A stretch of DNA of 20,098 bases from positions 1-20,098 of IMG/VR virus record IMGVR_UViG_3300049846_002667; one strand, given 5' to 3'. Shown piece by piece: positions 2,995-19,905 of this stretch. The position numbers and the translations under genes were made by a program. The stretch's first letter is position 1; each line of letters starts with the position of its first letter. Source of the stretch: a virus. The notes under the pieces were generated by a model. That model worked only from the letters and a program-made list of their open reading frames with translations. It searched no databases and had not been told where the DNA came from.

Positions 2995-3741
2995 TTAATA
3001 TCCGTTATAAAGGTATCCATCATCAAACTGAACTTGCATTCCGTATCCCGAAAGAGGATCTGTTATCATTGCAACAATTTCATCTCTGTCTGCTTCGCTT
3101 ATCTCAGCATCATCAGATCGAGCTGCAGAAGCATTGTCGCGAAAACTTCTTTCGAGCATTTGTACATCACCTAAGTCCATTTTCTGAGGAGAAAATCTAC
3201 TTCTCTTTGCAACACGAAGCATAATGAAATCTACAATTGCTTCAATGTGATTTTCCATTACCATAGGAAGTCCTTCAGAATCCTCTTGTAATCCTAAGTA
3301 CTGAACAGTGATATATTGCTTGTCGTAATCAGCGCTAAGGATAATATGATTGTCTTGCACCTCCCATTTGAAATGACCAAACTGCAAATCAATTTGTCCA
3401 TCTGGTTTATCAACAACAACAAATCCTGTATTAGAATCTTCTTGAAAATTAAGTTGCTGAGTCATTCCACAAATTGTATTATACAAATCGTATGTTTTAC
3501 ACTCGTGGTCTCCAAGAACAATACGTTGAACAAACTTTGCATCACAAGGAAGTTCTGCACGATACTTGTCAACTTTAATACGTTTTATTTTTCTACGATA
3601 TGAATAGTAGGAGCCAATAATATTTTCAGCTCTTGCTGCCCAACGAATAAAATCAGGAATATATTTTGCGTGGTCAATACCCATATCCTGAAGCGCCTCC
3701 AAGACCGGTACCTTAATTGATATGAGTTTGTTTACAGCCAT
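2995..3741 (-). CDS. Putative neck/tail ring protein (crAss-like virion block)
   Basis: This 248-residue protein starts with an ATG that overlaps the preceding stop (TAATG) and ends 2 nt before the stabilization gene, so the three genes look translationally coupled. The N-terminal third reads ISIKVPVLEALQDMG and IPDFIRWAARAENIIGSYYSY. It is followed by AELPCDAKFVQRIVLGD, a pattern resembling the P-x-(D/N)-x3-(I/V)-x2-(I/V) strand common in phage head-tail connector and tail-ring proteins. A lone stretch of beta sequence follows, then a helical AIVDFIMLRVAKR segment and an acidic C-terminus. I do not recognise a named family. Position between the IHF-like gene and the stabilization gene points to a structural neck component. 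Confidence 0.6.
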   Translation of the reverse strand: MAVNKLISIKVPVLEALQDMGIDHAKYIPDFIRWAARAENIIGSYYSYRRKIKRIKVDKYRAELPCDAKFVQRIVLGDHECKTYDLYNTICGMTQQLNFQEDSNTGFVVVDKPDGQIDLQFGHFKWEVQDNHIILSADYDKQYITVQYLGLQEDSEGLPMVMENHIEAIVDFIMLRVAKRSRFSPQKMDLGDVQMLERSFRDNASAARSDDAEISEADRDEIVAMITDPLSGYGMQVQFDDGYLYNGY

Positions 3742-4226
3742 TATCTTAAATCTGGAAGGGTTTTAATTATATCTTCATTCATTGTATTTACCAAATCAAT
3801 TATCTCTCTAGATACTTTAGAAATCAACTTTGCTTTAACAGATTTTTTATTTTTTCTGTGATGCACAAAGTTAAATCTTGAATCAAAGTTAAATTTACGA
3901 TGAATTGGCCGAATAACACCTTTTATCATTTTTTCAGTATTAAAATTCTTATCAAATTTTTTTGAATGAATTAATCCCTGCATACTACTCGACCGCCTCA
4001 CCAATAGAATGCTTCCATTTCCTTTCCCTGGCATAACAACTTCATTTCCCTGTACAAGAGACTTTCTCAATTCATCAAAAAAACCATAAAGAACTTTATA
4101 ATATTGAATACCATCCTTAACCTTGCCCTTCTTAACCATCCAAACTAAATTCTTATGACAGATATCCTGTGGCCTTAAATTACTGTCTTTGTTCTCTTGC
4201 CGGATCTGTTGAATCGTTTTTATCAT
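3741..4226 (-). CDS. IHF/HU-like basic protein of the tail gene block (putative)
   Basis: A small, strongly basic 161-residue protein. Residues about 42-78 read as a helix (YYKVLYGFFDELRKSL) followed by QGNEVVMPGKGNGSILLVRR. This fits the HU/IHF scheme of a helix, then G-x-x-(V/E)-x-(L/M)-x-G-x-G and a strand ending in arginines. Crass-like genomes are known to carry one or two IHF-subunit-like genes beside the P22 gp4-like tail gene, which is the position here. The start overlaps the preceding adaptor gene by 47 nt; the next internal Met (residue 30) would remove sequence that looks native, so I keep the upstream start. The stop overlaps the next ATG by one base. An uncharacterised virion protein is the alternative. 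Confidence 0.55.
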   Translation of the reverse strand: MIKTIQQIRQENKDSNLRPQDICHKNLVWMVKKGKVKDGIQYYKVLYGFFDELRKSLVQGNEVVMPGKGNGSILLVRRSSSMQGLIHSKKFDKNFNTEKMIKGVIRPIHRKFNFDSRFNFVHHRKNKKSVKAKLISKVSREIIDLVNTMNEDIIKTLPDLR

Positions 4227-5016
4227 CAGCTAAAGATTGTTGTTCTACACCAAAATCCTGAGTTAATATTTTCATCTTAATAACTTCTCCCATTGTATGA
4301 GACATAGGATATTCATCGCGGTCGGTCATTTGTCTTTTCTTAGAAGTAAGTACAACCTTTCCACTTCCTGTAAAAGTTGCTGATACTGCAGAGAAAGAAT
4401 CCCCGGCACTGTATTTTACAGAGTTATGAGTAATACTGCCAGAATCAACAGTATAACTAGTTCCGACAATTAATTCTCCGGAAAGTTTATAAGTATTGTC
4501 ATTTACATATCCATCTAGAGGACTATCCAAAATAAGTATTGGACGAAATTTCTTTACCGACAAAGGAAGATATATAGCATTACCAACCTTAGTGTAAAAT
4601 TTAAGGTGGCTCATAATATTGTCGGGATGCAATAATTGAATTTTGTGTATAGTTAAATAATGATATTCATACTTTCCACAAATAGAACGAATGGAATGAA
4701 CTCCAAGATCTGAAGCATTTCCGAGATTATCTGTAATTGAAACTACAGGAGGAATAACTGCTTTTGAAAAGGAACAGTCGCAACCAGAGACAGCAGTGTC
4801 CTCACTTCGATTAACAGGAGTTAAATCGGTAACTCCCATATCCTGCAACCAGATTGGTTCAATAACAGGATTACGCTTAAAAGTTTCCCTTATCTCTCGG
4901 GCCCTACGTTGATCAATTAAAAAGCCGATATGTTTATCGGCCAAACGAGAATCATCAGTAACTCCGGATTTAGTCAGAAGTCTTTTGATATCGTAGATAA
5001 GTTCTTTACGTGTCAT
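4180..5016 (-). CDS. P22 gp4-like head-tail adaptor / tail tubular protein
   Basis: The 278-residue protein opens with MTRKELIYDIKRLLTKSG, then TDDSRLADKHIGFLIDQRRA and IEPIWLQDMGVTDLTPVNR. This SDDS-x-(I/L)-...-RA-x-x-I pattern with a following Q-x-(M/L) and VNRSE segment is, to my knowledge, characteristic of the gp4-like tail tubular proteins of crAss-like and related Bacteroidota phages, which form the ring joining portal to tail. The helical N-terminal half fits a connector. Residues 177-223 form an inserted beta-rich module (GTSYTV, KYSAGDSFSA, TFTGSGKV) shared with two neighbours. The C-terminal tail after about residue 250 is polar. A strong terminator ends 5 nt before this ATG, so its leader is U-rich rather than A-rich. 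Confidence 0.7.
   Translation of the reverse strand: MTRKELIYDIKRLLTKSGVTDDSRLADKHIGFLIDQRRAREIRETFKRNPVIEPIWLQDMGVTDLTPVNRSEDTAVSGCDCSFSKAVIPPVVSITDNLGNASDLGVHSIRSICGKYEYHYLTIHKIQLLHPDNIMSHLKFYTKVGNAIYLPLSVKKFRPILILDSPLDGYVNDNTYKLSGELIVGTSYTVDSGSITHNSVKYSAGDSFSAVSATFTGSGKVVLTSKKRQMTDRDEYPMSHTMGEVIKMKILTQDFGVEQQSLADDKNDSTDPAREQRQ
4348..4488 (-). other. Shared beta-rich module, copy in gp4-like adaptor
   Basis: Residues 177-223 of the adaptor: LSGELIVGTSYTV, then SITHNSVKYSAGDSFSA and TFTGSGKVVL. This is the most complete copy of the module, with the clearest Y-x-x-G-D-(S/T)-F core. It looks like a compact insertion in the adaptor fold. Confidence 0.6.
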
Positions 5017-8718: not shown

Positions 8719-10206
8719 TTATCGAGCAGAGATTCTTCCGCAAACAGTTGTGTTGTAAACAACGATCATGTCTTGTTTCAACATTGCAAAACGGATAGCA
8801 TCTTCTTCCGAAATCATTGTACCTTGATTGATACCGGTTAATCCGTTAAGATAACCTTCAACCATTGAACGATTGATTCCGTATGCACCTTTTGACATGA
8901 TGTCAACGTTTCTACGGCCATCAACTTCCATAGTAAGAATTGTGATTTCTTTTGATTTCAAAATTCTACCATCGGCAGCTTTAGCAGTATAACGATCGGC
9001 ATCACTAAACAAAGGATGTTCAATCAACACAAGGGTATCACCATTGAAGTTGAAAGTGTTGAAGTTAAACCCAATCGCAGGTTTTGCTCCACCAACTTCA
9101 TTTGATTGATTTACCATTTGTTGCAATTGAATCCCTTGTTGTGCAGAAGCTGCTGCAGGGAATTCTCTTTGAGCAATTCTCATTCCATCAATACCGGTAA
9201 CACCAACGTAGATTGATCCCTCAACCATATTTGATTTCTTACGAAGAGTGGTAAGCATATCGCTTACATCATCATAAGTCCAATCACCGTTACTTCCAGA
9301 ACCGAAAGCTTCATTTCCACCTTCAAGTTGCTTATTTACTCCATCGCCTTGAACGATATCAAGACCTGTTTCAGGATCCTGCAATCTTGATTTCACGCGA
9401 AGCGTTCCATCATCATTCTTCATAGAAGAAAGACCATCCCATTTCTGGAATTCATTCTCCATTAAGAATTGAGCTTTCGCTTGACGCTCTTGCTCCCATC
9501 TCCAACCCATTGTTTTGGTACCTTTTCCTTCAGCAGAAACGTAGTCATACCAAATTACATCAGTAGCAGCATCACCTGTGATACCGATTGATTTTCTTTG
9601 AGTGGTCATGTGAACGATGAACTGATCAGGAGTATGGCTACGGCCATAACCTCTCATAGATTTTTCTCCATAAGAAGTATATCCACCAAAACAAGTTTTG
9701 GTAGCACCTTGAGGAGATACGTGAGTATCCCATGCAAATACAGTTCCATCAGGAGATTTGAAAGTATAAATATAGTTTCCAGCGCTTCCTGTTGGTGCAC
9801 CTTGAACACGAGCTTGAAAGCCTGCGCCATGGAACAACACGTTCATTCCGGGAACTAAATAATTATCTTCCATCGCAAGTTGGAAAGTTCCATCAGAAGA
9901 TGTTGAACCAACTTGATACTTAATAACAGAAGCTCTTTGGATTCTGCCCATGATATCAAACTGATAAGCATTATTGCCAATCAATTTTGAATCATCTACT
10001 TTTCCCAATTTAGTAGGAACATATCCTACACCATAAGGACCAACAGCGCCAGACACCAACAAGGTTGATATCATACGTTTGTCAGCATACTCAAGAAAAT
10101 CCCTAACGATAGGTTTTTTCAATTGATTTTCAGTCAAGTTGTTTTCAGTTACACAAGTTTCTGTGAACTTACCAACGCGAGTTTGAATTCTACCTTTAAA
10201 AGCCAT
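8719..10206 (-). CDS. Major capsid protein (crAss-like)
   Basis: The 495-residue protein has the length expected of crAss-like major capsid proteins (about 490-510) and sits right after the scaffold-like gene and two after the portal. It should adopt the HK97 fold, but that is inferred from context, not visible in motifs. The N-terminus (MAFKGRIQTRVGKFTETCVT) and the LLVSGAVGPYGVGYVPTKLG segment lead into a body rich in Gly and aromatic residues, with long strands such as FNFNGDTLVLIEHPLF and a C-terminal MLKQDMIVVYNTTVCGRI. The central part contains polar stretches such as TKTMGWRWEQERQAKAQF. The leader carries a long A-rich stretch and a terminator follows, fitting very high expression. Transcription probably starts at the promoter in front of the scaffold gene. 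Confidence 0.82.
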   Translation of the reverse strand: MAFKGRIQTRVGKFTETCVTENNLTENQLKKPIVRDFLEYADKRMISTLLVSGAVGPYGVGYVPTKLGKVDDSKLIGNNAYQFDIMGRIQRASVIKYQVGSTSSDGTFQLAMEDNYLVPGMNVLFHGAGFQARVQGAPTGSAGNYIYTFKSPDGTVFAWDTHVSPQGATKTCFGGYTSYGEKSMRGYGRSHTPDQFIVHMTTQRKSIGITGDAATDVIWYDYVSAEGKGTKTMGWRWEQERQAKAQFLMENEFQKWDGLSSMKNDDGTLRVKSRLQDPETGLDIVQGDGVNKQLEGGNEAFGSGSNGDWTYDDVSDMLTTLRKKSNMVEGSIYVGVTGIDGMRIAQREFPAAASAQQGIQLQQMVNQSNEVGGAKPAIGFNFNTFNFNGDTLVLIEHPLFSDADRYTAKAADGRILKSKEITILTMEVDGRRNVDIMSKGAYGINRSMVEGYLNGLTGINQGTMISEEDAIRFAMLKQDMIVVYNTTVCGRISAR

Positions 10207-11567: not shown

Positions 11568-13769
11568 CTATTGAGGCATTCCATTTTCTAAATCATTATC
11601 AAGACTTCTTAATGCAGCTTGATTTTTAGCATCAGCAGACTTAACAATTAAATCAACTTTTCCTTTTTCTCTTATCTTTTGCAACTCATGCATCTGTACA
11701 TCTTCTCTATTTTCTCTAGAAAGCTGAATAGCAGTCTCTGACTGACGAGCTGAATTCTCCTGATCTGCTGCCAATTGTTTATTCAAGGACATCTGTTTCA
11801 TCTTTTCAACTTTATCCCATCCTTCAAGAGCCGCTTTTCTTGCATCAGCAAGTGTATCTGACATCTGAACATCAATAAGATCGACAAACCTCATTTCGCC
11901 TTTGTTAGCATAACTTTCAGCATAAGCCTCAATCTTTTGTTTAAGCATTTGCTCTCTTCGTCCATTAACGAGAGAAACTCCATAGCTCTGATTGGCGATA
12001 TCCATTGACGCTTTTAGATATTCAAAATCTTCATCACCAAGAATAAAGCGAAGTTTTTCCGGTTTGTGTAATCCCCAGGCAAGTTTTGCTGTTTCAGCGA
12101 GTCGAGTCAAAGCCTCTTCAACAAATGCATGCATATAAAAAAACAAAGATTCCGTAATTGTTCTTGATGCAGCTTGAGATGCGGCGGCATTTGTTGCCGT
12201 TGCAGACGCGGCAATATTTCCTTCACGATATTCATTGATGCCTGTTACGCGGTCCATCATTGCAAGATTATCGTTCTTGAAAGCAAGAAGTTGCTGGAAT
12301 GAATTACTTAACCCCAAATCGATTTCTTTAAACACTCTCTCGAATGGCAAATCTCTTCCCCCCATATTTGCTTGCCCAGAAGATGAATAATCTATGAATG
12401 AATCATTGAGCAAATTGTAAAGAACATCTTTTACTTTTTTTCCTTTTGGCAATCCTGCGCGGTCGTAAGCAATTGATTTTCCTTTCATCTTGCTTATTTC
12501 ACGAAGAGATTGGTACATCACAATATTGTGAATATTTGAAAACGGCTCAATTACTTCCTGAAGAGAAACACATTCTCCATCTACAGATTTTACTCCAACA
12601 AAAACATAACTAAACATTGGCTTTCCAGAATCTTCATCTCTCATCATAAAAGGTTTTGGCCTCATATTGATATTTAACTCATGCCCAATTCTAGTTGCCT
12701 CATAAAGAACTTCTTCCCATTCTACAGTAACTTCTTCGCCACGCTTTTTATACTGCTCCATGTTTCTCTCATAAGCAGTTTCCTGAAGTGGAAGTTCAAC
12801 AACTTCATTTTCTATTGGAGCAAATTCTTTTTGCGAATTAGTAAGAGGAGATTTTTTTGTGTATTTCGGACGAACTCCCATCCATTCAAGATGAAGCACT
12901 TCTACAGCAAATTGCCCTTTATGCATAGAGTACTTCCCTCTATACAAATCATTGTTAAGATACTGTTCGTATCTGTCTCTCATTCCATCAAGAACGGAAC
13001 GTTGCTTATCAGACAACTTATATTTCATCAAAATTTCATTTATTGGAAGTTTCCTTCTGCTTCCAAAAACAAAACTTTTTTTCATCAATGGATCATTGTC
13101 AAACTCAATAAAAATTCCATCACGAGGATCGATGGTTTCAGTCCAAATATCTCCGGTATCTTCATTCACATTTATCTTAATACCGGCATGTCCCGTAATG
13201 CAACCATCAACGAAATTTCTACCGAACTCCTGGACTAATTTCATTTCATCTATACACGTATCAATAATACGTTGCATGATTATTTCATTCTTATCCTTTG
13301 GAGTTATTTTTTGTTCAAATTCCGGATCTTTTGGGTCTTGAATTGGAGCGCCTTCCATTGGATCAATTCCATTTTCAGCAAGTTTTACCAAATCTTTTTT
13401 CATGTAAGCAGCACCAAGATTGATATGCTTTACACGAAGTTTATTTACAACAGCTTTAGAATTGATTGTTTTTACAGTAGACTTCAAAGGCGTCTGCAAC
13501 CATTCTCCATGAAGAATGTCGATTTTATTTTTTCCTACTCGATAATCAATATAGTTTCCACGGTTCTTTTTTCCGTATGTTTCAGTAAGATACTTTGTAC
13601 TTTTTGGAGAGATAAGTCCATTGTATTCTGCATAATTACGATTCCATTTTTGAACTTTAGAATCAGTGTTTCTTACAAGGTCTTCTACAAAGTCAAGATG
13701 CATTCGGAACCAATTTTCCGTCTTTTCAATTTCTTTAACATCTTGTCTGGGCCAATTCTTACTTGCCAT
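11568..13769 (-). CDS. Portal protein
   Basis: This 733-residue protein has the length and place (after TerL, before scaffold and MCP) of the crAss-like portal, the dodecameric ring through which DNA is packaged and ejected. Residues 1-100 contain the helical clip-side region WFRMHLDFVEDLVRNTDSKV and a YIDYRVGKNKIDILHGEW motif. Around 505-570 comes MMDRVTGINEYREGN followed by an Ala/Ser/Thr-rich segment and a long helix (TITESLFFYMHAFVEEAL). That VTGI-x-x-x-x-x-G layout is typical of phage portals with a helical barrel. The last 70 residues are a charged coiled coil. It stops with TAG, whose last bases adjoin the scaffold promoter. A 28-nt gap separates it from TerL. Confidence 0.85.
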   Translation of the reverse strand: MASKNWPRQDVKEIEKTENWFRMHLDFVEDLVRNTDSKVQKWNRNYAEYNGLISPKSTKYLTETYGKKNRGNYIDYRVGKNKIDILHGEWLQTPLKSTVKTINSKAVVNKLRVKHINLGAAYMKKDLVKLAENGIDPMEGAPIQDPKDPEFEQKITPKDKNEIIMQRIIDTCIDEMKLVQEFGRNFVDGCITGHAGIKINVNEDTGDIWTETIDPRDGIFIEFDNDPLMKKSFVFGSRRKLPINEILMKYKLSDKQRSVLDGMRDRYEQYLNNDLYRGKYSMHKGQFAVEVLHLEWMGVRPKYTKKSPLTNSQKEFAPIENEVVELPLQETAYERNMEQYKKRGEEVTVEWEEVLYEATRIGHELNINMRPKPFMMRDEDSGKPMFSYVFVGVKSVDGECVSLQEVIEPFSNIHNIVMYQSLREISKMKGKSIAYDRAGLPKGKKVKDVLYNLLNDSFIDYSSSGQANMGGRDLPFERVFKEIDLGLSNSFQQLLAFKNDNLAMMDRVTGINEYREGNIAASATATNAAASQAASRTITESLFFYMHAFVEEALTRLAETAKLAWGLHKPEKLRFILGDEDFEYLKASMDIANQSYGVSLVNGRREQMLKQKIEAYAESYANKGEMRFVDLIDVQMSDTLADARKAALEGWDKVEKMKQMSLNKQLAADQENSARQSETAIQLSRENREDVQMHELQKIREKGKVDLIVKSADAKNQAALRSLDNDLENGMPQ

Positions 13770-13797: not shown

Positions 13798-15897
13798 TTA
13801 ATAGTCAAATGGTACAAAGTCGTCCTCACTAGACGAAGTTTCTTTTGCATCAACGGAATGCATTACAGTTCTTGCATATCGACTAAAATAATCCTCCTCA
13901 ACTCCAATAGGTTTTTCATTTGCAATTTTGCTGGGAACTACAATAGAATTCCCTTCACTATCACTACTAAATTCAGGATATTCATAAGGATCATTTTGCA
14001 TTATCTCACTCTCGTTTGCAGGAATATAATTGTCAGCAGAAATTGCTTGCATCAATGCTAATCCTAGAGCATCTACAGAGTCATTATCTGAATCAACTTC
14101 AAACTCATCATAATTTAACGCCTCATTGATAATTTCTTCAAACCAAACTTTCTCTACGTGGAAATCAAAAAAACTTTGTAATGCAGCAATCATTTTTGGC
14201 TTTGTACTTGTATTCAACGATAAACCAAATTCATTTGAAGCTTTTGCAGAAACGGATTCAAATTTTCTTGGACGTCTTGCTAGTAGCCATTCAAATCCTG
14301 CATCCTGAAAATGTTTCATTATTAACGGAGTTCTCGCATCACATAAAACATTATCTCTGATTCCATAGTATATAGAAAGCTTCAAGCACATTTCATAAAA
14401 CTGTTCTTTATATTTTGGTCGAGTGCGAATAAGAGCAACAGGTCTCCATCCATCTTGCCCGGCTATATTATGTTTCTTACGAAATACAACCATTGCTCCA
14501 AGAGATTTTGAATTCTTAGATTGATTCTGGTCATAAGAGTCAATACCTGCTACATCCAAATTCACATATCCCTGAACAGGATGTCCGTCGTTGAGAATAT
14601 ATACAACTTGATCTTCGGGAGTTTCTTTACTAGCAGGTTTAATTTCTATTTGAGTTGGAATTAAGAGCGCACCTGTTTCAGGATTTTTTTTATAATCCAA
14701 TACCCAACGATTATATCTTTTTGAACCCTCAGTATCTATTTTGTAAAGCTGATCATTCATCTTTACAACATCGAAATTGTTACTTGCAGTTTTTCGGAAT
14801 ATTTCTTTTCTTTCTAGAGGATTCTCTTGTTCAAACTTGAAATACTTATCCATATCTCCCTCATCAAGCAATTTCTTTTTTTCCTCTTTAATTAATTGCT
14901 CGGCTCTTACTTCATCGGAAATTCCAAACCGTTGATATGGTTCTAAATGTTGTAAATTAGGAACGTCTTCTGAAACAACTCCACGTTCATCAGTAGCCCC
15001 TGCGTATGCTGGATAATAAAATACAGGAGCAAGGACACACCACTCTTCTGCATTATAAGCATCAAGATTATTGCTAAGATGTTTAAAGTCTTTAGAACCT
15101 TTGTCCATATTACCTCCGGTGCCATAAAACCAGAAAGTACCAAACTGCACTCCACCTAATCTCAAACACATCTCAGAAGCCTTCTGCATCTCAAGTAACA
15201 TTTCATTCTCACCAGATTCTTCTGAAACTATATCATGTAAAAATTTCCCCTTTAAAACATTCGGGTTTTTATTTACAGTTCGGATATAAACAGTATTCAT
15301 CGTTCCGTTATCAACCGGACCCGTTGCTGTCATTTCTTGCCATCCTGCAACAATTTCATCAGCATTGTCATAACGCATGCGCACACGAAACTCTGGAATC
15401 ATATTGGAGTTTATGAATCTCCACTTATCCATAAAGTCTTGCGCATGTTCATCTAGTCCGGCAACAACTGCAGCATGATAGTTCTGAGAGAATCTCCATC
15501 CGTAATCTATCACCATTCCGTTGGTCATTACAGAAAGTGCCTTACGACGCGCTTTTGGAATGAAAGCATTTTTTCTGCGCTTCTTTAAATCTTCAATCCA
15601 CAAAGCATAGTCTAATTGGTAATCGTGATATTCCATCGGAACATTTCCTTTTACCGTTTGTGTCTTATCTAAGTTTATGAATTTGTAAAAACGTCCTGGT
15701 AAATAAAGTCCTCCTGTTTGATAACCATAGTGCATGTAATGCAATTGCTCTTCCCAGAATTGTTGATACGCTAATGTATCTGCAACCTTCGGATTAGCTA
15801 TAGCATCCGCATAAGCAGGGATGCCATGTTTGACTAGGGGGTTCGGACAAAATGATTTTGTCTTAATAACTCGCGATGGAAGTATATTAAATTTCAT
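13798..15897 (-). CDS. terL: Terminase large subunit (ATPase-nuclease)
   Basis: This 699-residue protein packages DNA into the prohead, cutting concatemers with its C-terminal nuclease. The ATPase part shows PKARRKALS (residues about 114-122) at the Walker A position, IVSEESGENEM (about 223-233) at Walker B and FWFYGTGGNM (about 255-264) as the coupling motif. The RNase H-like nuclease shows LDVAGIDSYD (about 447-456), VLCDART (517-523) and DNDSVDA (604-610), giving three acidic positions. The N-terminal 100 residues carry a YLPGRFYKFINLD segment common to Bacteroidota phage terminases. Walker A lacks the canonical G-K-S/T triad. The ATG overlaps the preceding gene's end by 11 nt. Last 80 residues are acidic and Ser-rich. 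Confidence 0.93.
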   Translation of the reverse strand: MKFNILPSRVIKTKSFCPNPLVKHGIPAYADAIANPKVADTLAYQQFWEEQLHYMHYGYQTGGLYLPGRFYKFINLDKTQTVKGNVPMEYHDYQLDYALWIEDLKKRRKNAFIPKARRKALSVMTNGMVIDYGWRFSQNYHAAVVAGLDEHAQDFMDKWRFINSNMIPEFRVRMRYDNADEIVAGWQEMTATGPVDNGTMNTVYIRTVNKNPNVLKGKFLHDIVSEESGENEMLLEMQKASEMCLRLGGVQFGTFWFYGTGGNMDKGSKDFKHLSNNLDAYNAEEWCVLAPVFYYPAYAGATDERGVVSEDVPNLQHLEPYQRFGISDEVRAEQLIKEEKKKLLDEGDMDKYFKFEQENPLERKEIFRKTASNNFDVVKMNDQLYKIDTEGSKRYNRWVLDYKKNPETGALLIPTQIEIKPASKETPEDQVVYILNDGHPVQGYVNLDVAGIDSYDQNQSKNSKSLGAMVVFRKKHNIAGQDGWRPVALIRTRPKYKEQFYEMCLKLSIYYGIRDNVLCDARTPLIMKHFQDAGFEWLLARRPRKFESVSAKASNEFGLSLNTSTKPKMIAALQSFFDFHVEKVWFEEIINEALNYDEFEVDSDNDSVDALGLALMQAISADNYIPANESEIMQNDPYEYPEFSSDSEGNSIVVPSKIANEKPIGVEEDYFSRYARTVMHSVDAKETSSSEDDFVPFDY

Positions 15898-18100: not shown

Positions 18101-18241
18101 TTAGTTTAAAAATTCCAAATCATCGTCTTTGTATTCGGTTTTACAGTCGACTGAGTTACACCAGCCACCGCGCTGTAAAGCATAAACTAGAACTATCATT
18201 CCTGTTGCTTTTACTTTTGCTCTGCGTTCTTTTGCTTTCAT
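18101..18241 (-). CDS. Small hypothetical protein, 46 residues
   Basis: The ATG at 18241 opens a 46-codon frame ending in TAA at 18101, 9 nt before the next gene's ATG. It fills the only sizeable gap in this cluster. The N-terminus is basic (MKAKERRAKVKATGM), followed by a hydrophobic IVLVYAL, then RGGWCNSVDCK with two cysteines five residues apart and an acidic end. The first four codons encode MKAK, as in the next gene, within a similar leader. No family recognised. Confidence 0.5.
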   Translation of the reverse strand: MKAKERRAKVKATGMIVLVYALQRGGWCNSVDCKTEYKDDDLEFLN

Positions 18242-18246
18242 GTTTA

Positions 18247-18570
18247 TTAATCTAAAATAACCCAATCAGTTGCAAGTGCATCAGAAGTCGATGGAGACCA
18301 TCCTGTAATTAAATTACTTGGATTTACCAACGCCAATTGATTATCATAATAGATTGCATTTATCTGGTCTGCTGGTGTATCAAATCTTCTTTGAAACTCA
18401 TCTTTTACAGATTGAGGCAGAGATTGCATTTTAGGAACAACATCTTTTCCGATTGTTGAAGGCACTTGCATAAATACAAATAACCCTTTTCCATTCCAGC
18501 CATCGCGTTGAACTCGTTTGCCATTTTTAAGGGCTTCTATGGCTTGCCCAAATGTTTGACCTTTTGTCAT
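18247..18570 (-). CDS. tad2: DUF2829 / Tad2 family anti-defence protein
   Basis: The 107-residue protein carries the two hallmark segments of the DUF2829 family: FGQAIEALKNGKRVQRDGWN (residues 7-26, followed by GKG) near the N-terminus and WSPSTSDALATDW (91-103) near the C-terminus, with a middle strand KGLFVFMQVP. Tad2 proteins were identified as Thoeris anti-defence proteins: they form oligomers that bind and sequester the 1''-3' glycocyclic ADP-ribose signal, and some relatives bind other cyclic nucleotide signals such as those of CBASS. Whether this copy binds the same ligand cannot be read from the sequence. It belongs to a run of small genes upstream of the structural block, where early functions are plausible. 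The TAA stop and an A-rich leader (minus strand) support the boundaries. Confidence 0.88.
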   Translation of the reverse strand: MTKGQTFGQAIEALKNGKRVQRDGWNGKGLFVFMQVPSTIGKDVVPKMQSLPQSVKDEFQRRFDTPADQINAIYYDNQLALVNPSNLITGWSPSTSDALATDWVILD

Positions 18571-18588
18571 TTTGTTTTGTTTTAATTG

Positions 18589-18780
18589 TTAATACTCTTT
18601 TCCGATAACTTCTAAGTTGATTAATTTCTTAATAGCTCCAAGGCTAGATTTAATCTCACCTAAACAGTGATTTTCTAAGTCCGGACCATCGGTAGCCTTC
18701 AGACTTTCCTTAATCTCTTGCACATACTTGATATAATCCTTATAGGGTGCAATTTTCTGTTCCAAAGTTTTCTCTCCCAT
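18589..18780 (-). CDS. Small hypothetical helical protein, 63 residues
   Basis: The ATG overlaps the previous gene's stop as TAATG, indicating translational coupling. The protein is almost wholly helical and charged (LEQKIAPYKDYIKYVQEIKE, then GEIKSSLGAIKKLINLEVIG), with a single Cys at about residue 39. It ends 18 nt before the Tad2-like gene. No family recognised. Confidence 0.6.
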   Translation of the reverse strand: MGEKTLEQKIAPYKDYIKYVQEIKESLKATDGPDLENHCLGEIKSSLGAIKKLINLEVIGKEY

Positions 18781-19061
18781 TAGATGATAGTATCTAAGTG
18801 ATTAACCATCTTATTCAACCTAGTGTTGTTCTTAATAAGACGGTCTAATAATTGCTCCATACTACTTGCAAAAGAATTTGGCATTTCAGTAGCAACTTCA
18901 GTCTTTGAAGTTTCTTTTTCTATCTCTGGCTTTGAGATATCTCCAATTGCTTTTTCTATCTGCAGAATATAATCTCCTTGCACTGCGATTACTTCCTCAA
19001 ATCCCTTTGAAAGCGAAACTAATTTCGGCTCCGATTTCTTTACATTTTCTTGCATACTCAT
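18780..19061 (-). CDS. Small hypothetical helical protein, 93 residues
   Basis: I choose the ATG at 19061 (MSMQENVKK) because the leader there is A-rich (AATAAAAACAAAATAAAAAAC), the usual start context in this genome. An upstream ATG at 19136 in the same frame would overlap the preceding gene by 52 nt. The protein is helical, with SFASSMEQLLDRLIKNNTRL followed by NKMVNHLDTII at the end. The central KETSKTEVATEMP stretch looks like a flexible linker. Function unknown. It is coupled to the next gene through TAATG. Confidence 0.6.
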   Translation of the reverse strand: MSMQENVKKSEPKLVSLSKGFEEVIAVQGDYILQIEKAIGDISKPEIEKETSKTEVATEMPNSFASSMEQLLDRLIKNNTRLNKMVNHLDTII

Positions 19062-19084
19062 GTTTTTTATTTTGTTTTTATTGG

Positions 19085-19408
19085 TTACACGTAAAATTTC
19101 TCTATCACCCTGTCCTCTCCATAAACCCTTACCCATCTCTCTAGATCCCTCACCGTCTTAAACACCCAGCACTCTAATACCCAGTGGCTCTGCTTTACCA
19201 CCTCAAAAAAGTTCCGTATCTCTCCCCCGCTTATCTTCAATACAAAACAATGCGGCAGTAAGTTCCCATTCTCATCCCTTGCTAGATTACTCCAGGCATT
19301 GGCTTTGATTTCCTCAACCTCCCCGAAATCCCCAAACACCGCCTTAAATAATTGTGGCTCCTCTTCTAGGCCCACCGCCTCCTTTATAATCACTTCTCCT
19401 GTTTCCAT
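19085..19408 (-). CDS. Hypothetical protein, 107 residues, G-rich codons
   Basis: It begins 5 nt after the previous gene's stop and ends with TAA 23 nt before the next start. The protein is acidic at the N-terminus (VIIKEAVGLEEEPQLFKAVFG) and aromatic in the second half (SHWVLECWVFKTVRDLERW). Codons differ from the late genes: GGG, AGG, GTG and GAG are frequent, where late genes favour GGA, AGA, GTT and GAA. No family recognised. Confidence 0.6.
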   Translation of the reverse strand: METGEVIIKEAVGLEEEPQLFKAVFGDFGEVEEIKANAWSNLARDENGNLLPHCFVLKISGGEIRNFFEVVKQSHWVLECWVFKTVRDLERWVRVYGEDRVIEKFYV

Positions 19409-19413
19409 TTTCT

Positions 19414-19905
19414 TTATTTTTTAATTACGTACAACTTATTACTAAATTCAAAATTACCCAAAGTCATTTCCGGCTTATTATTCTCATCCCTAAATTGAAT
19501 GCAAAAACCTATCGAAGTATAATAGTCATTTAACAAATTCCTAAGATCTGGATGCGTATCAAGAAACTCATAACTCGGAAACATCTCTCTTTTCATAGAT
19601 TCCAAATCCGCCTCAAGACATGTATTCTTTGCCTCTAAAGCTTTATTCTCCTTACTCAATCTCTCCATCTCCTGCAACTCCGAATCAACCAATTTCCTCT
19701 GCCCCTCAGAAGTAACCCATTTCTCCCTCTCGCCCTTTAGTATTAGCAACTCCCTAGAGCCCATCATAAACCTATCATACAATTCTCCATAAGCAGTTCT
19801 CGACACCTCTAACTCTCCTTCCAGCTCCTTTACCTTTCCCTTTAGTTCATCAACATCAGGAAAACTCACCTCCACCTCCGATTCCGACTTTAATTTTATT
19901 CTCAT
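19414..19905 (-). CDS. Hypothetical coiled-coil protein, 163 residues
   Basis: After an acidic start (KLKSESEVEVSFPDVDEL), residues about 20-110 form a likely coiled coil (LKGKVKELEGELEVSRT, then LQEMERLSKENKALEAKNTC and EADLESMKREMF). A short globular tail follows (YEFLDTHPDLRNLLNDYYTS, then IGFCIQFRD). The ATG is preceded by the A-rich CTAAAAAATTAAGAGT leader. It is the first clear gene of the window's upstream side, and the promoter-like element at 19946-19977 lies 41 nt before it. Codon use is G-rich like that of the next gene. Function unknown. Confidence 0.65.
   Translation of the reverse strand: MRIKLKSESEVEVSFPDVDELKGKVKELEGELEVSRTAYGELYDRFMMGSRELLILKGEREKWVTSEGQRKLVDSELQEMERLSKENKALEAKNTCLEADLESMKREMFPSYEFLDTHPDLRNLLNDYYTSIGFCIQFRDENNKPEMTLGNFEFSNKLYVIKK

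Follow-up and report, generated by a model that had tools for sequence, protein, structure and literature searches.

The Tad2-like gene and the phage that carries it

The window, i.e., the whole stretch of 20,098 nucleotides of viral DNA that was analysed, carries on its minus strand a gene that encodes a Tad2-family protein of the long form, together with the terminase, portal, capsid and tail ring genes of a crAss-like phage (Table 1). A Pfam profile search placed the 107-residue product in PF11195 Tad2-like, the renamed DUF2829, with 70.4 bits (E=1.9e-19) against a curated cut-off of 25 bits, and PHROG 872 also matched this reading frame (E=3.6e-21). In addition, seven distinct Tad2 sequences of the PDB were detected with phmmer, with E-values from 2e-18 to 4e-12; the best of them was SptTad2 (E=2e-18), followed by HgmTad2/AcrIIA7 (E about 6e-18 to 2e-17), and ModTad2 (E=5e-14) and SPO1 Tad2 (E=3e-12) ranked lower. 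Profile and sequence matches of this strength exclude a chance match. The assignment to DUF2829 that an earlier note had made from the letters of this DNA was thus borne out by the profile search that it proposed, and the three peptides that it quoted (FGQAIEALKNGKRVQRDGWN, VPKMQSLPQSVKDEFQRR and WSPSTSDALATDW) are found letter for letter in the protein.

Both family hallmarks, the GWNGKG loop and the W..S.SD.LA.DW helix, are intact in the window protein, and residues D97 and W103 of the latter are invariant in the 42 aligned sequences. In SPO1 Tad2 the loop b1-b2, which is the counterpart of the GWNGKG loop, is part of the gcADPR pocket (PMC12043709). The gene is preceded by an A-rich leader, as are most genes of the window. 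Leaders of this kind, without a Shine-Dalgarno sequence, are usual in Bacteroidota. Two close relatives of the protein from cellular genomes were found in Bacteroidota MAGs, on contigs that are possibly phage.

Table 1. Location of the Tad2-like gene, its segments and other features of the window
Feature	Position	Strand	Details
CrAss_Ring_1 tail ring protein	2995..3741	-	PF24228, E=1.9e-11, 44.3 bits (cut-off 27)
CrAss_Ring_2 tail ring protein	4180..5016	-	PF25702, E=3.2e-10, 40.5 bits (cut-off 27)
Major capsid protein	8719-10206	-	PHROG 11589 major head protein, E=1.2e-21
Portal, crAss-like	11568..13769	-	phrog_6547, E=2.7e-49; phi-crAss001 gp20 (PDB 7qog), E=2.7e-20
Large terminase (TerL), crAss-like	13798..15897	-	phrog_6681, E=1.1e-48; cr10_1 terminase, 22.6% identity, E=8e-14
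46-aa ORF MKAKERRAKVKATGMIVLVYALQRGGWCNSVDCKTEYKDDDLEFLN	18104-18241	-	no family match
Tad2-like signal-sponge gene, long form	18247..18570	-	107 aa; ATG start, TAA stop
C-terminal hallmark WSPSTSDALATDW, helix alpha3 region of gcADPR-type pocket	18262..18300	-	codons 91-103
Core of long-form insertion, VPKMQSLPQSVKDEFQRR	18385..18438	-	codons 45-62; loop and helix 53-63 (DSSP of model)
GWNGKG loop, usual N-terminal hallmark	18481..18507	-	codons 22-30 (RDGWNGKGL); alignment
A-rich leader AAAACAAAACAAA, immediately before the Tad2 ATG	18571..18583	-	no Shine-Dalgarno
Four small genes upstream of Tad2	18592-19905	-	63, 118, 107 and 163 aa; second overlaps third

The order of the genes along the minus strand is Tad2, the 46-aa ORF, an unknown 266-aa protein, an exonuclease, another unknown protein, TerL and the portal, followed by an acidic 401-aa protein, the major capsid protein, three further proteins, CrAss_Ring_2, a 161-aa protein and CrAss_Ring_1. 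With both ring proteins above their cut-offs and a portal that matches gp20 of phi-crAss001, the claim that this is a crAss-like phage stands. Nevertheless, its TerL and portal are only 20-24% identical to those of cr10_1, cr109_1 and their relatives, hence the phage is crAss-like yet very divergent. The major capsid protein was matched by its PHROG alone, with no tblastn match among 50,697 phage records and none among PDB chains; this phage may therefore represent an unsampled crAss-like lineage. Scans of IMG/VR viral contigs with TerL and the major capsid protein gave no near relatives of the whole phage.

Predicted fold and the long-form insertion

An AlphaFold model of the window protein, built as a single chain from an alignment of 41 sequences, had a mean pLDDT of 94 and a pTM of 0.76. 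The structure prediction suggested in the earlier note led to the same family, given that every one of the 24 Foldseek matches in the PDB at E<=0.001 was a Tad2 entry. The top match was SptTad2 with cGG (8wjd; TM 0.80/0.84), next to apo-AcrIIA7 (8kbi; 0.81/0.83), HgmTad2 with 1',2'-cADPR (8kbj; 0.76/0.81) and AcrIIA7 with both 1',2'-cADPR and cGG (8kbk; 0.75/0.77); ModTad2 with hisADPR (9eib) gave 0.66/0.79, and SPO1 Tad2, normalised by query length, 0.55-0.63. The order of the matches mirrors the insertion, with long-form proteins ahead of the short ones, and the predicted protomer has the fold of HgmTad2 and SptTad2 including their long insertion.

SptTad2 is the closest known protein both in sequence and in structure, with 38% identity in the structural alignment, and it is also a long form with the SLPxxxK element; however, its C-terminus reads WLASQTD where the window protein has WSPSTSD, its insertion is LPNVKSLPDAVKK as against VPKMQSLPQSVKD, and in an unrooted tree it falls on a different branch (support 98/95). 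HgmTad2/AcrIIA7 (8kbi, 8kbj, 8kbk), likewise a long form, shows about 37% identity and lies across the same supported branch; its insertion segment VNQVKSLPESFKR includes the same element, and in 8kbk a single chain type has a cADPR isomer and cGG bound simultaneously. Outside SLPxxxK the two insertions diverge (VNQVKSLPESFK in HgmTad2 versus VPKMQSLPQSVK in the window protein). SPO1 Tad2 (8sme, 8smf, 8smg), the founding anti-Thoeris member, shares the core fold but is a short form. ModTad2, from a Myroides odoratus prophage and thus from a Bacteroidota host, has a C-terminal hallmark, WTPSVSDILAEDW, much like that of the window protein; unlike it, ModTad2 lacks the insertion (TMq 0.66).

In the alignment with 8wjd, 8kbi, SPO1 Tad2 and ModTad2, the insertion lies between beta2 and beta5, as it does in HgmTad2 and SptTad2; the SLPxxxK element is common to these two and the window protein, and it is absent from SPO1 Tad2 and ModTad2. 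Residues S50 and L51 are kept in all 36 aligned sequences, and M48 and P52 in 35 of them. According to a review of the primary work, Tad2 binds two cyclic dinucleotides (CDNs) through the beta2-beta5 insertion, independently of the gcADPR pockets, and the tight binding of cGG, with suppression of TIR-STING, has been credited to this insertion (PMC12043709). It has also been shown that SPO1 Tad2 fails to bind 3'3'-cGAMP (PMC11722364), and that SptTad2 mildly activates Panoptes, an effect that the authors of that study attribute to the sponging of 2',3'-c-di-AMP (PMC12657218). The middle segment had been put forward as a polar stretch that may set ligand preference. A role in ligand binding would agree with the reported CDN-binding insertion; the segment is not a freely varying patch, however, but the most conserved part of the protein in its subclade.

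A Tad2-like protein had already been annotated in a crAssphage record, and the contrast in conservation described below is the only surprising part of this analysis. In the crAssphage sp. isolate ctbg_1 a Tad2-like domain is annotated in UniProt (A0A345MSY5); this protein is 28% identical to the window protein, and the two predicted structures superpose with TM 0.80/0.84. An uncharacterised protein of the crAss-like phage cr108_1 was also a structural match. No paper on Tad2 in crAss-like phages was found in a search of the open-access literature.

Conservation among long-form relatives

Conservation was compared in a set of 34 long-form relatives, all less than 85% identical to one another, obtained from scans of viral and cellular contigs. 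Residues 44-52 (VVPKMQSLP) had a mean pairwise identity of 0.82 in these relatives, versus 0.47 for the GWNGKG loop (residues 22-30) and 0.52 for the C-terminal hallmark (residues 91-103). The majority fraction was also higher in 44-52 than in 22-30, with a 2.5% bootstrap bound of +0.147 on the difference. One set of search patterns covered residues 31-38 and 53-59 and spared the three stretches compared. The patterns bordered the conserved segment, and some of the earlier ones touched the compared stretches, so that there is some ascertainment bias and the contrast is perhaps inflated somewhat.

The GWNGKG loop has been lost in several relatives, in five of which its place is taken by GHGENT (L034), SFGENV (L050), IHPEGT (L070), WAPGT (L072) and WPDG (L074); all five retain PKM or PRMxSL. 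In these and in L009, part of the C-terminal hallmark is gone together with the loop, and PKMxSLP or a near variant is kept. The isolate phages found by tblastn alone agree with the contrast: P[KN]MQSLP is kept in BS162P1, BS-TP1, BS-TP2, SJC03, DAC22 and MT839443, a near variant occurs in MT836104 (QKMQSFP), and PV4-TP1 and csAssE-Sib have VKSLP. Tenacibaculum phage Gundel_1, detected in the same way, carries a short-form Tad2.

A relative with 69% identity (L003:9995-10342, from the same record as L033) has a single in-frame TAG at the position of its Q45, within the conserved KMQSLP motif. Recoding of TAG as glutamine was considered and rejected because neighbouring genes end normally at TAG; the in-frame codon thus looks like a nonsense mutation or a sequencing error.

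Proposed function, alternatives and gene neighbourhood

The segment reported to bind cyclic dinucleotides is the best conserved one, which favours a cyclic-dinucleotide sponge and makes CBASS no less probable a target than Thoeris. From these results, we propose that the protein is probably a long-form sponge with two sites, that among its targets a cyclic dinucleotide, likely c-di-GMP, is the one kept best, and that the Thoeris pocket is retained in the window copy. The protein would be made during infection, would assemble as a Tad2 homotetramer and would sequester immune signals, without enzymatic activity, at two kinds of site. The first would be a pocket for gcADPR or ADPR-type signals, made up of the GWNGKG loop together with the W..S.SD.LA.DW helix near the C-terminus; the second, located on the PKMQSLPQSVK insertion, would take up cyclic dinucleotides. 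If the host belongs to Bacteroidota, the likeliest ligand of this second site would be 3'3'-c-di-GMP (cGG), with which STING-type CBASS signals, and the pocket for ADPR-type signals would protect against Thoeris as well. Signals would in this way be kept below the threshold, and effector activation and abortive death would be stopped.

Prevotella, Myroides, Flavobacteriaceae, Capnocytophaga and Sphingobacterium all belong to Bacteroidota. These are the groups whose STINGs have been studied, and c-di-GMP is the ligand reported for bacterial STING (PMC8748872). Prokaryotic STING (PF20300) was found in 14 of 297 Bacteroidota genomes and in 1 of 299 genomes of Pseudomonadota, the phylum to which a Rhodobacteraceae MAG belongs; this difference speaks for STING as a target, and the low share among Bacteroidota (about 5%) speaks against it. 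A more specific version of the proposal seems to us possible although rather doubtful: the strongest selection in the subclade would act on the CDN site of the insertion and not on the Thoeris pocket, the members with a degraded loop and C-terminus would be CDN-only sponges against STING-CBASS, and the window protein would be a dual-site form near the transition. What speaks against the two-site sponge is that the insertion departs from that of HgmTad2 outside SLPxxxK, and that its conserved residues could instead stabilise the tetramer.

We consider it unlikely, although several points speak for it, that the protein is a Tad2 directed chiefly at Thoeris signals (type I gcADPR or type II His-ADPR) and that its insertion is structural. 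The window copy has the full GWNGKG loop and WSPSTSD.LA.DW, its C-terminal motif is near that of ModTad2 (WTPSVSDILAEDW), a protein of a Bacteroidota prophage solved with hisADPR, and Thoeris was the first defence shown to be blocked by this family. Nevertheless, PKMxSLP or a near variant has survived in several close relatives in which the loop and a portion of the C-terminal hallmark are gone, and the insertion is missing from ModTad2 and SPO1 Tad2.

Inhibition of Cas9 in the manner of AcrIIA7, with no role as a signal sponge, appears extremely improbable. It is suggested by the deposition of the HgmTad2 sequence (8kbi) as a type II CRISPR-Cas inhibitor, by the DUF2829 domain of AcrIIA7 (PMC6739104) and by the sequence similarity of the window protein to AcrIIA7 (E=2e-17). 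Yet this same HgmTad2/AcrIIA7 protein was crystallised with 1',2'-cADPR and cGG, only one AcrIIA7 homologue was reported to occur in a genome that carries self-targeting spacers of type II-A (PMC6739104), and no link to CRISPR or Aca genes was seen within the window. Divergence towards another small ligand, or towards a structural or regulatory role in which immunity is no longer blocked, is also very unlikely. It would fit the position of the Tad2 domain of Bacteroides phage BS-TP2 in a tail-gene module, the fusion of Tad2 to another N-terminal domain in several phages, and the lack of a solved structure from this subclade in the PDB sequence search; however, both ligand-site segments are strongly conserved in the window copy, and the gene is scattered widely over unrelated phages as accessory cargo, as expected for anti-defence genes.

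For the two-site sponge that we favour, the present analysis places a long-form protein, probably with both sites, in a very divergent crAss-like phage, near terminase and exonuclease genes, and it delineates a Tad2 clade where the CDN insertion persists while the hallmarks of the Thoeris pocket erode. If binding is borne out, the annotation "Tad2" in such phages would mean anti-CBASS first, and the protein would be a counter-defence against bacterial STING, which is commoner in the sampled Bacteroidota than in Pseudomonadota (14 versus 1, in approx. 300 genomes each).

At E<=1e-3, no fewer than 291 phage records contained a relative of the window protein. Among 396 Bacteroidota genomes, only 2 had a PF11195 locus, which did not suffice for an unbiased conservation set. 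When 19 proteins of the window were compared by tblastn with Tad2-bearing loci, Tad2 alone was shared, in a test limited by the fact that these loci are flanks. A distant kinship of the packaging genes emerged only from profile searches, which detected a crAss-type TerL and portal in 9 of the 14 virus records tested among those with long-form relatives, and the cut-off of CrAss_Ring_1 was passed by 3 of 35 records other than the window. The distance between Tad2 and TerL varies between records in contig coordinates, and the Tad2 gene behaves as accessory cargo.

None of the four small genes upstream of Tad2 exceeded a curated cut-off of Pfam or NCBIfam, and the five genes, Tad2 included, resemble a small patch of accessory genes. 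No defence or anti-defence family of PADLOC or NCBIfam was found in the neighbouring ORFs except for a weak partial match to PtuA (E=0.0025, 44 residues) on the 118-aa protein; this protein resembles a coiled coil, and the match was rejected as low-complexity similarity. The gene at 19085-19408 (minus strand) has a GC3 of 0.55, versus 0.22-0.43 in the other listed genes, which hints at a different origin. Directly downstream, the 46-aa ORF lies five bases past the Tad2 stop codon. In other records (L096:3575-4294, L098:288-788 and the long frames of L058 and L011), Tad2 is fused to an N-terminal domain that bears a motif of the GY.SWSPKE type. The carriers of this fusion are the Bacteroides phages BS-TP1 and BS-TP2 and some metagenomic relatives, and in BS-TP2 the fusion gene is surrounded by head-tail and tail genes.
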